20,831 bases of DNA from a virus, in the IMG/VR virus record IMGVR_UViG_3300048694_000248, positions 1 to 20,831 of that record; one strand, given 5' to 3'. Made by a program: the position numbers and the translations under genes. How positions within the stretch are numbered: position 1 is the stretch's first letter; each line of letters begins with the position of its first letter. The notes beneath the pieces were generated by a model. That model did no database searches. It was given only the letters and a program-made list of their open reading frames with translations, and was not told the origin of the DNA. Of this stretch, positions 318-4,045 are shown piece by piece.

Positions 318-535
318 TGGTTCAATATGTCCTCCAAACATTCTGATTCTAAGTCTGCCCAATCAAAGTTGGACTTGGTTAATAGCTGGCTGATGTCAGT
401 GCCTTTGTAAGTGACGGCAATGATATTAAATGATGGCCTTTCTGGTGGGTTGATTTCGCTGCCTGGATAACCTTTGATAAATTCACCATGTACCTCAATC
501 TCAAGCTCTAATGGTATTGTTTTGGTTAGTTTCAT
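314..535 (-). CDS. Hypothetical protein, 73 aa
   Basis: This is a short acidic, soluble protein that I do not recognise. It has no signal peptide, no membrane segment and no clear motif. The start ATG (535-533) overlaps the stop of the octapeptide-repeat gene by ATGA, and its own stop overlaps the next start in the same way. The middle reads like a beta-rich fold (SFNIIAVTYKGTDIS) and the C-terminus is acidic. The two precise overlaps are the main reason to call it real. It lies in the early/DNA-metabolism block downstream of the RecT-like gene, but nothing in the sequence says what it does. Confidence 0.65.
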   Translation of the reverse strand: MKLTKTIPLELEIEVHGEFIKGYPGSEINPPERPSFNIIAVTYKGTDISQLLTKSNFDWADLESECLEDILNQ

Positions 536-1092
536 AAAATTACTACATTAAATTTATCCTCAATAAAATACAAATTTCCAGTTGAACGCTCTCTAATTAC
601 TGACGAATCATTTAATATTGATTTATCCTTTAACTCATAAACAGATGAATAGCTTGAATCGTAGTGTTCCGATGTGCTTGAACCGTAGTGTTCCGATGTG
701 CTTGAATCGTAGTGTCTCGATGTGCTTGAACCGTAGTGTTCCGATGTGCTTGAACCGTAGTGTCTCGATGTGCTTGAATCGTAGTGTCTCGATGTGCTTG
801 AACCGTAGTGTTCCGATGTGCTTGAATAGTAGACACAAAAATTTTCTTTTTGAATAATGCCTTTTTTATTTACATAAATACCAGCCAAGACAAGTTCTTC
901 ATCTGGGACTTCTAATATTGTTTCTGTATTAATTATATTAGTACGATATATCCAATTAGAATAATTTTTAACTACTAATAATAATTCATTATATGTAGTT
1001 GTATTTATGGCTGCGCTTAATCCATCATAACAAGCATTATTTAATTTGGCTTGTTCAATTATCCATGTTTTAAATTCTTGAAATGTTTTCAT
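532..1092 (-). CDS. Octapeptide-repeat protein, probable beta-solenoid
   Basis: This 186-residue protein has three parts. Residues 1-88 are a non-repetitive domain, residues 90-145 are seven copies of an 8-residue repeat followed by one degenerate copy to 153, and about 33 C-terminal residues contain RERSTGNLYFIED. The repeat consensus is SSTS[E/R]HY[G/D]. The pattern matches octapeptide repeats that I recall from Bacteroidota and their phages (DNSTVEAY type), which are expected to stack as a narrow beta-solenoid; the resemblance is from memory. Only two positions vary, each with two states (Glu or Arg; Gly or Asp). There is no signal peptide or membrane helix, so it is probably cytoplasmic. 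It starts 12 bases after the 66-residue gene, with an A-rich leader and no Shine-Dalgarno. Function is unknown. Confidence 0.8.
   Translation of the reverse strand: MKTFQEFKTWIIEQAKLNNACYDGLSAAINTTTYNELLLVVKNYSNWIYRTNIINTETILEVPDEELVLAGIYVNKKGIIQKENFCVYYSSTSEHYGSSTSRHYDSSTSRHYGSSTSEHYGSSTSRHYDSSTSEHYGSSTSEHYDSSYSSVYELKDKSILNDSSVIRERSTGNLYFIEDKFNVVIL
634..825 (-). repeat. 24-bp in-frame tandem repeat, seven copies plus one degenerate
   Basis: The repeat unit is 24 bases and encodes the octapeptide SSTS[E/R]HY[G/D]. Seven near-identical copies run from 825 down to 658, and a diverged eighth reaches 634. The variable codons are GAA or AGA, and GGT or GAT; the remaining bases are almost invariant. 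Because the period is a multiple of three and the unit lacks stops in several frames, long shadow ORFs appear in the other frames and on the plus strand here. Such a tract is prone to copy-number change by slippage or recombination. Confidence 0.95.
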
Positions 1093-1104: not shown

Positions 1105-1305
1105 TTAAATATTATGTCGTTTTTTAAATTCATACTCTTTTAATTCCTTATATGCCTTAATGGACTTGGTTCTCAACTGCTGATACACCTCGTCATTTTT
1201 GAACATGTCATCTTTCACTTCCACCGCCTTATATTCAACATACGTGAATAATTGGCGGTGTTTAGTGAACTCGTCTGCACTGAGTATGAGGGTTATTAGT
1301 TCCAT
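1105..1305 (-). CDS. Hypothetical protein, 66 aa
   Basis: A small basic protein, rich in Lys and Glu and likely mostly helical (KSIKAYKELKEYEFKKRHNI at the C-terminus). The ATG at 1305 overlaps the last codons of the RecT-like gene by 10 bases, so it is probably translated with it. I do not recognise a family. Its position directly after a single-strand annealing protein is where small recombination accessory proteins are often encoded, but that is context and not a motif. It is followed by 12 non-coding bases and then the octapeptide-repeat gene. Confidence 0.65.
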   Translation of the reverse strand: MELITLILSADEFTKHRQLFTYVEYKAVEVKDDMFKNDEVYQQLRTKSIKAYKELKEYEFKKRHNI

Positions 1306-1967
1306 TCTGAGGCCTTAAGTTTAGATGCTGCAATTACACTCTCCAATGTACGTACAGATTGGCTTAAGGCTCTGTATAAGGCCGTTAGTTGATCTTTAGA
1401 CTTACACTCTGATATGGCTGCAATGGCCTCTGATTCGGTCATAAATGCCTCGGGTAATTCCTCTACCACTTCAGCCGTGGTATCAACATTCATCTCTTCC
1501 GGCACATACACTGGGCCGCTAAAAATATCAGGAGTAAACCACTTAACACCGTTTGACATTGCACGGGCAAATAGCATGTTTCGTGGAAATTTCTCTAAGT
1601 TTTTAGTTCCAGCTTTCTTAGCATCATCAAGGGTAAATGTAGAATTGCCAATTTTGATGTTACCCTGATAAAAGTCTATTGAACAAATTTTATCAGTTTG
1701 CTCAATAATTGAATAGTCATATTTGCCAGAACCTTTGACACGTGATGCCATAATGCCCGCCCCGATTGTTGGTTTGCCTTGAATAATATGTATGCCAGTC
1801 ATGGCAGCAAATGGAGGAATACCTATCTCTTGCCCAGCTTGTATTTTAACAATGGCTTGGGCTGCTGATTTTGTGTCTAAAAACATGCCTGATTCGGCAA
1901 ATGCCTTGCCAATAGACATTATCTCTGTAATTGGCAGTTGTTGTGTTGGTTTTAACTCTGATTTCAT
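1296..1967 (-). CDS. RecT-like single-strand annealing protein
   Basis: This 223-residue protein resembles a phage family commonly labelled RecT-like recombinase or single-strand annealing protein. Such proteins bind ssDNA and pair complementary strands during phage replication and recombination. Key features are the early block AIVKIQAGQEIGIPPFAAM (about residues 38-56), IIQGKPTIGAGIMASR (61-76), a middle strand pair with STFTLDDAKKAG, and the most diagnostic block FPRNMLFARAMSNGVKWFTP (127-146) followed by DIFSGPVYVPEEM. The C-terminal third, after about 160, is variable and acidic before a helical tail. The ATG at 1967 has an A-rich leader (AACCAAACAAC) and no Shine-Dalgarno. No partner exonuclease or SSB is in the window; it could lie beyond the left edge. 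The family call is from memory of conserved blocks. Confidence 0.75.
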   Translation of the reverse strand: MKSELKPTQQLPITEIMSIGKAFAESGMFLDTKSAAQAIVKIQAGQEIGIPPFAAMTGIHIIQGKPTIGAGIMASRVKGSGKYDYSIIEQTDKICSIDFYQGNIKIGNSTFTLDDAKKAGTKNLEKFPRNMLFARAMSNGVKWFTPDIFSGPVYVPEEMNVDTTAEVVEELPEAFMTESEAIAAISECKSKDQLTALYRALSQSVRTLESVIAASKLKASEWN

Positions 1968-3052: not shown

Positions 3053-4045
3053 TTAGTAAACCTTGCCTTTGATAATTACGTGGTTATGTAGCATATATTC
3101 GCCAGTCGTAATGTCGTGTTCAACATGCACAAAGCCGTGCTGCCACTTATTCACTGGCATGTAATACGGATTCATTCCGCACAAACATCCCATTGATTGC
3201 ACACTAATCACATTGCCTCCCATTGTTGTTTCATCGTGTGATGACCGCTTGTGGTAATGACCTACCAAAACACTATCTAACGTCTTTAAAAACGTGGCAC
3301 GAGCTGGATTAACACCACCAGATCCACCCGCCAATTCATGGCCGTGCAAAACGGTTAGTTTACCAATCTTTATTGGTTTTTTGTTTTTTACAATCTCAAT
3401 TCCCAGCTCACCCAACTGCAACCTTGCTTCGAGTGTAAACTCAGGGTCACCAAATAACTCAGGGGCTTTAACAAATAACCATTTCTCCCAACGTTCATCG
3501 TGATTGCCCTCTTTAAACACTATTCTTGCGTTTGGGAATGCCTTTCTGATGGCTTTTAATATGGTTCTTGCCGATTCAAATTCCTCGTGTGGCTTGCGTT
3601 GTCTCCAATCTTTCTCATGTCGGCTAATCATGGCAAAATCTAATAAATCACCGTTTATCAAAACAAAATTACATTTTTTTTGCTGACCGTATTTGATTGC
3701 TTGTGTAATTGAATCAACGTGGTGATAAGGCACGTGTAAATCAGATATAATCAAACCATTTGACTGGCTAATTACAAACGGGTTAAAGTCATCTGCATAA
3801 GATTCAGGTAAGTTAAATGGGTTATTGCTACCAGGCTCAGTGTATAGTGATTTGTCCTTTGTGTTTTGTCGGTGATAATTACCTTTTTGACCTTTCAAAC
3901 CACGTATAAATGTACGAACAGTATCAACGCTTGTAAATACTTCCTTATTTTCGTTATAAATAAGTTTTGCAATGGTTAAATTAGGGTGTTTTGGGTACTT
4001 TTTAAGGTAGTCTTTTATTAACTCACTTTTATACGTTTTGCTCAT
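3053..4045 (-). CDS. Calcineurin-like metallophosphoesterase with N-terminal helical domain
   Basis: This 330-residue protein has all the metal-binding motifs of the calcineurin-like phosphoesterase superfamily: DLH (D102, H104), GDLLD (D133), EGNHDE (N181, H182), LHGHE (H234/H236) and GHYH (H263, H265). The complete set implies an active two-metal phosphodiesterase or phosphatase. Substrates of phage members range from nucleic acid ends to nucleotides and cannot be read from the sequence. Residues 1-60 form a separate helical, basic domain (NLTIAKLIYNENK...DTVRTFIRGLKG) that looks like a helix-turn-helix, suggesting DNA binding. The start at 4045 overlaps the spanin-like gene by ATGA. It marks the transition from lysis to DNA-metabolism genes. 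A known precedent is lambda phosphatase, which is also phage-encoded. Confidence 0.88.
   Translation of the reverse strand: MSKTYKSELIKDYLKKYPKHPNLTIAKLIYNENKEVFTSVDTVRTFIRGLKGQKGNYHRQNTKDKSLYTEPGSNNPFNLPESYADDFNPFVISQSNGLIISDLHVPYHHVDSITQAIKYGQQKKCNFVLINGDLLDFAMISRHEKDWRQRKPHEEFESARTILKAIRKAFPNARIVFKEGNHDERWEKWLFVKAPELFGDPEFTLEARLQLGELGIEIVKNKKPIKIGKLTVLHGHELAGGSGGVNPARATFLKTLDSVLVGHYHKRSSHDETTMGGNVISVQSMGCLCGMNPYYMPVNKWQHGFVHVEHDITTGEYMLHNHVIIKGKVY

Follow-up and report, generated by a model that had tools for sequence, protein, structure and literature searches.

Among the known proteins closest to the repeat protein studied here are the mycobacteriophage proteins of PHROG 15773, which combine an octapeptide array with a DUF7666 domain and have no assigned function; ThetaBob gp59 and its homologue Che8 gp59 are examples. 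Like the protein of our window (20,831 bases, a whole IMG/VR virus record), they contain an octapeptide array and are encoded in a non-structural region; their units vary at codons 3, 5, 7, and 8, and copy number is variable. However, their N-terminal domain is a different one, and they end in DUF7666, which the window protein lacks; the similarity between the two reached only E = 0.0096. The needle of T4 gp5 (Pfam Gp5_trimer_C) resembles the family in its eight-residue period and its richness in β-structure, but it is a virion spike of three chains, whereas the window gene adjoins a RecT gene, and no Gp5_trimer_C match was found by Pfam in the window protein. The YdcK repeat (PF18836) is a β-solenoid matched above the cut-off by the array protein of one relative (L027), but its model is 17 residues long and has no match in the window protein. 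A search of the literature yielded no description of the octapeptide family.

The genes that could be assigned in the window, which comes from a Bacteroidota-type phage, all lie on the minus strand and encode a terminase, a tape measure protein, a capsid-like protein, a portal protein, an endolysin, a metallophosphoesterase, a RecT protein, and an HNH protein. The features relevant to the repeat gene are the following:

532..1092, minus strand: ORF of the octapeptide-repeat protein, 186 aa (ORF translation; N-terminal domain profile match)
826..1092, minus strand: N-terminal helical domain, residues 1-89 (held-out HMM and predicted helices)
658..825, minus strand: clean array of seven 24-bp units, SSTS[E/R]HY[G/D] (Tandem Repeats Finder, translation, codon comparison)
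634..657, minus strand: degenerate eighth unit, SSYSSVYE (translation and alignment)
535..633, minus strand: C-terminal cap, weakly similar to the family cap (HMM of nine caps)
1296..1967, minus strand: RecT-like ssDNA annealing protein, upstream of the repeat gene and in the same direction (PHROG 561, E = 8e-13)
3053..4045, minus strand: metallophosphoesterase; relative L012 has a homologue with 41% identity, some 0.9 kb upstream of its repeat gene

A separate 12-bp tandem repeat of 3 copies was observed at 2029-2064, inside a 63-aa ORF (1986-2177).

The original prediction described a 24-bp coding repeat at 634-825 in which only two codons vary (GAA/AGA and GGT/GAT). ORF translation and DNA comparison bear this out: in the minus-strand ORF at 532-1092, CVYY is followed by SSTSEHYG, SSTSRHYD, SSTSRHYG, SSTSEHYG, SSTSRHYD, SSTSEHYG, and SSTSEHYD, and then by SSYSSVYE, which reproduces the predicted order EG, RD, RG, EG, RD, EG, ED. 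The span needs adjustment, as the clean units cover 658-825 and positions 634-657 hold the degenerate eighth one, and the strand, which the original prediction left unstated, is the minus strand. The variable codons are codon 5 (GAA/AGA) and codon 8 (GGT/GAT); the other six, including codon 7, are identical at the DNA level in all seven units, with zero synonymous differences. All four combinations of E/R and G/D are present, so the four-gamete test is positive. Tandem Repeats Finder reported a span of 652-826 with a period of 24, 7.3 copies, and 91% matches, along with a second, higher-order period of 72 bp (97% matches); a test against all orders makes this 3-unit period no more than suggestive (P = 0.11).

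With the window protein as query, no match was found in Pfam, among named phages, or among viral contigs. When its units were swapped for SATVEAYG-like ones, the query retrieved a protein of Porphyromonas phage005b (XAW31785.1; E = 4e-9) with the same layout of N-domain, 16 octapeptides, and cap. The units of this protein are of essentially two DNA types, and a third differs at one codon. Relatives were assembled into a set of 29 viral loci carrying octapeptide arrays; two synthetic cap sequences were added to steer the scans for these relatives, and the sequences used as evidence are from real loci only. An HMM of the N-domain, built without the window, recovered the window ORF at E = 4.6e-15 (residues 1-76) among 8,353 ORFs, and gave no further confident match outside the family in that set.

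The phage005b protein and those of the IMG/VR contigs L008, L010-L016, L018, and L132 share with the window protein the N-domain, an array placed directly after it, and units with two-state codons 5 (E/R/K) and 8 (G/D); their cap is one to which that of the window is weakly similar. They differ in that their units follow the usual family pattern, [S/N]ATV[E/R/K]A[Y/W/C/S][G/D], whereas the window has only seven units, all of them with S4 and H6 in place of the family's V4 and A6. These sites are near-invariant in the set (V4 in 340 of 349 units, A6 in 341 of 349), and the seven S4 and seven H6 all come from the window. SSYSSVYE aligns with the [G/D][S/N]AY.. motif that closes arrays in the family, and the window cap matched the HMM of nine family caps at the expected place, with E = 0.46. 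On the ground of its N-domain, we treat the window protein as a divergent, rather than typical, member of an uncharacterized phage family, to which its gene, judged by these comparisons, belongs. The initial guess at an octapeptide-repeat family proved right for the relatives.

Arrays of the same kind also occur with other end domains, e.g., with DUF7666 in mycobacteriophages, in Dulem virus 38, and in ctHz2215. Two scans of genome contigs gave no confirmed relative, and no homologue of the repeat gene was found within up to 4 kb on either side of 80 RecT-relative loci. A contig 94% identical to the window (L038) ends before the repeat gene. PADLOC returned no meaningful match. Related repeats of about 44% identity, mostly in hypothetical proteins, were seen in 32 plasmid records, 30 of them from Rhodococcus or Prescottella.

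Across 34 arrays, the variation within arrays was found mainly at codons 5 (E/R/K), 7 (Y/W/C/S/T/G), and 8 (G/D). At the other positions, the units of one array mostly share the same DNA, but the synonymous codons used differ from phage to phage, which is the mark of concerted evolution. The ratio πN/πS was 6.3 at codons 5, 7, and 8 and 0.42 at the other codons (35-37 arrays for this and the four-gamete analysis). Because the search pattern had left codons 5 and 7 free, which could inflate πN, the arrays were re-delimited by DNA similarity, giving 3.5 at the three codons and 0.50 elsewhere. Taking whole units, 32 of the 35 arrays had πN above πS, and bootstrapping gave a 95% range of 1.6-4.6. 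The two-state sites, E/R(K) and G/D, recur in relatives, distant phages included. The units of an array thus remain almost the same in DNA, and their differences are mostly nonsynonymous and at codons 5, 7, and 8; since these codons keep a high πN/πS, the two-state positions are a family property that survives homogenization.

The arrays also differ in number and order of units between related phages, as the original prediction had anticipated. Two contigs that are 99.98% identical over 4.3 kb beside the array have 7 and 12 units (L010 and L011). The closest relatives of the window protein, encoded by L131 and L132, have 12 and 34 units, with 97.8% identity over 3.1 kb and the same cap; here, the same gene (from 2779 onward in L131 and from 2345 onward in L132) contains 26 consecutive EYD units in L132. 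Among named mycobacteriophages with similar flanking domains, the arrays have about 3 (Raymond7), 4 (BabeRuth), 10 (Che8), 12 (SkinnyPete), 14 (Frankie), and 21 units (Squirty). Over 1257 bp, BabeRuth matches Rebel at 99.84% identity, with a single changed unit, whose variable residues now equal those of its neighbor. These pairs indicate that family arrays change in length and order much faster than their flanking DNA, with the caveat that repeats can be miscounted in metagenome assemblies. Of 28 relative contigs, 11 end inside the array (L014, L017, L019, L020, L021/L037, L023, L024, L032, L033, L034, and L036), L021/L037 being a single contig with both ends within it, as expected where short-read assembly fails on a repeat. 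For the window phage itself no copy-number change was seen, since no close relative spanning the repeat gene was found.

Some repeat genes appear disrupted. In L015 (3986-4563), the array extends over two reading frames, which suggests a frameshift or an assembly error. In the mycobacteriophages EleanorGeorge, Nitzel, and Soul22 (L120, L123, and L126), the repeat gene no longer stays in frame, the break falling within the array or beyond it; these isolates therefore seem able to do without the gene.

A further part of the original prediction was that unit types had been shuffled by recombination. All four gametes were found in 24 of 37 arrays, the window included, which fits the prediction, although sites within one unit are linked. 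The order of adjacent units (lag 1) was mostly indistinguishable from a shuffle. Strict unit-to-unit alternation of charge was rejected at lag 1, and duplication of multi-unit blocks was rejected as a general pattern (significant in 3 of 30 arrays). The only regularity that stood out was at lag 2, where identical states were depleted at codon 8 (z = -3.4, Wilcoxon p = 0.001), codon 7 (z = -2.2), and codon 5 (z = -1.35), a signal that is strong at one of the three sites and comes from several tests on 29-32 arrays that are not fully independent. It persisted without most of the actinophage isolates, and no depletion was seen at lags 1 and 3. In the window array alone it was not clear. As two octapeptides per turn would make a 16-residue coil, we read the lag-2 depletion as possible avoidance of like-on-like stacking. 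The proposed tuning of charge along one face holds only in part: at codon 5, charge follows no pattern at lag 1 and alternates only weakly at lag 2.

Structures were predicted for a relative and for the window protein. The AlphaFold model of the L008 protein (mean pLDDT 86.5; array mostly about 90 or above) has a helical head and a β-solenoid with one strand per octapeptide, at codons 3-6, so that a β-solenoid is predicted for this relative. From strand alternation in this model, we infer that codons 5 and 7 would point outward and codons 4 and 6 inward. In the model of the window protein, residues 1-40 are predicted helices (pLDDT 82-87), and the strand positions of the array are similar to those of L008 at a low confidence (pLDDT about 45), which is consistent with its odd S4 and H6. 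The predicted solenoid thus holds for relatives; for the window protein itself it can be inferred, and given S4/H6 and the low-confidence model, its array may not be an ordinary solenoid. Foldseek gave no match below E = 0.001 in the PDB for either model, so no solved fold matches convincingly, and two matches below 0.001 in BFVD, both to uncharacterized phage proteins.

The repeat gene had been placed in a DNA-metabolism block, and this setting was upheld: it adjoins RecT, and the repeat genes of relatives lie near genes for RecT and an exonuclease; for Erf, exonuclease VIII, a DNA polymerase, a Gp2.5-like protein, and SSB; or for a replication initiator and a Holliday junction resolvase. Such neighbors argue for an early, non-virion role. 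The explanation we consider moderately probable is that of an early, probably non-virion phage protein, built as a helical head with a rod of octapeptide rungs and shaped by turnover and selection. Units would be gained, lost, and overwritten when repeats slip or anneal to homologous copies as the phage replicates, a moderately supported step in which the RecT-like annealing protein might, as a conjecture, move the repeats. With similar, moderate support, purifying selection would hold the buried V4 and A6, while a mixture (E/R, aromatic/small, G/D) would be maintained by selection at the exposed and turn positions. One reason for this would be that each octapeptide stacks on the next but one in a 16-residue coil, where identical charged or bulky residues on top of each other would be disfavored. 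The role of the protein is a best guess: an early binding rod, whose mixed-charge face of adjustable length might, soon after infection, bind a molecule of the host or of a rival element. Against this explanation stand the S4 and H6 of the window array, its invariant codon 7, and the run of 26 EYD units in L132, by which heterogeneity is not essential everywhere.

Other explanations account for parts of these data. The rod could be a recognition surface in an arms race, with order and number of units setting its specificity for a variable host or competitor molecule, comparable to variable leucine-rich-repeat receptors. The concentration of nonsynonymous variation at exposed or turn codons, the fast turnover on near-identical backbones, the early-gene setting, and the wider alphabets of mycobacteriophage arrays at codons 3, 5, and 7 all point this way, but most sites have two states, and so small an alphabet (E/R/K, G/D) is poor for open-ended recognition; we regard this as possible, though doubtful. 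Neutral turnover, in which slippage homogenizes the array and the two states are chance polymorphisms at unconstrained surface sites, would agree with the slippage-like copy-number changes and with the shuffled order at lag 1. Unconstrained sites should, however, give a πN/πS near 1 rather than 3.5-6.3, and the same E/R and G/D states recur in distant phages, so this reading is already disfavored and appears unlikely.

A trimeric β-helix like the C-terminal needle of T4 gp5, which is octapeptide-based too, is suggested by a sub-threshold similarity of the family to Gp5_trimer_C and by a match of the L027 array protein to gp5 chains (E about 2e-7). Such matches are inflated by repetitive sequence, though, and members with identified neighbors lie in DNA-metabolism blocks instead of tail modules; L008 is modeled with confidence as a monomer, and the stacking signal is at lag 2, while we would expect one at lags 1 or 3 from a three-chain helix. 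This makes a needle improbable. Finally, the window array could derive from canonical repeats whose reading frame has since shifted, as the +1 frame of 658-825 reads NTTVQAHR, restoring V4 and A6, and the unit DNA matches relatives best when rotated in the way that a +1 shift would require. This match is not significant (P about 0.017 before correction), the actual frame scores better (8.6 versus 2.6 bits), and in that frame the E/R and G/D sites of the family keep their register with the two flanks, leaving such an origin very improbable.

Returning to the early binding rod, we tentatively suggest, as a possibility that is still rather less than probable, that these early phage proteins form a class which is widespread but has not been described, and in which selection and the turnover of repeats together keep the exposed residues of a β-solenoid mixed, without identical residues stacked one coil apart, and provide a recombining, length-adjustable surface for binding host or competitor targets. 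If so, a simple scaffold of repeats would be common to phages of very different hosts, its surface reshuffled fast while its core stays unbroken, a natural counterpart of designed repeat proteins. The members, labeled merely hypothetical by annotation pipelines, would be candidates for interaction proteins of early infection, and the lag-2 rule would offer a testable prediction of coil length from sequence only.
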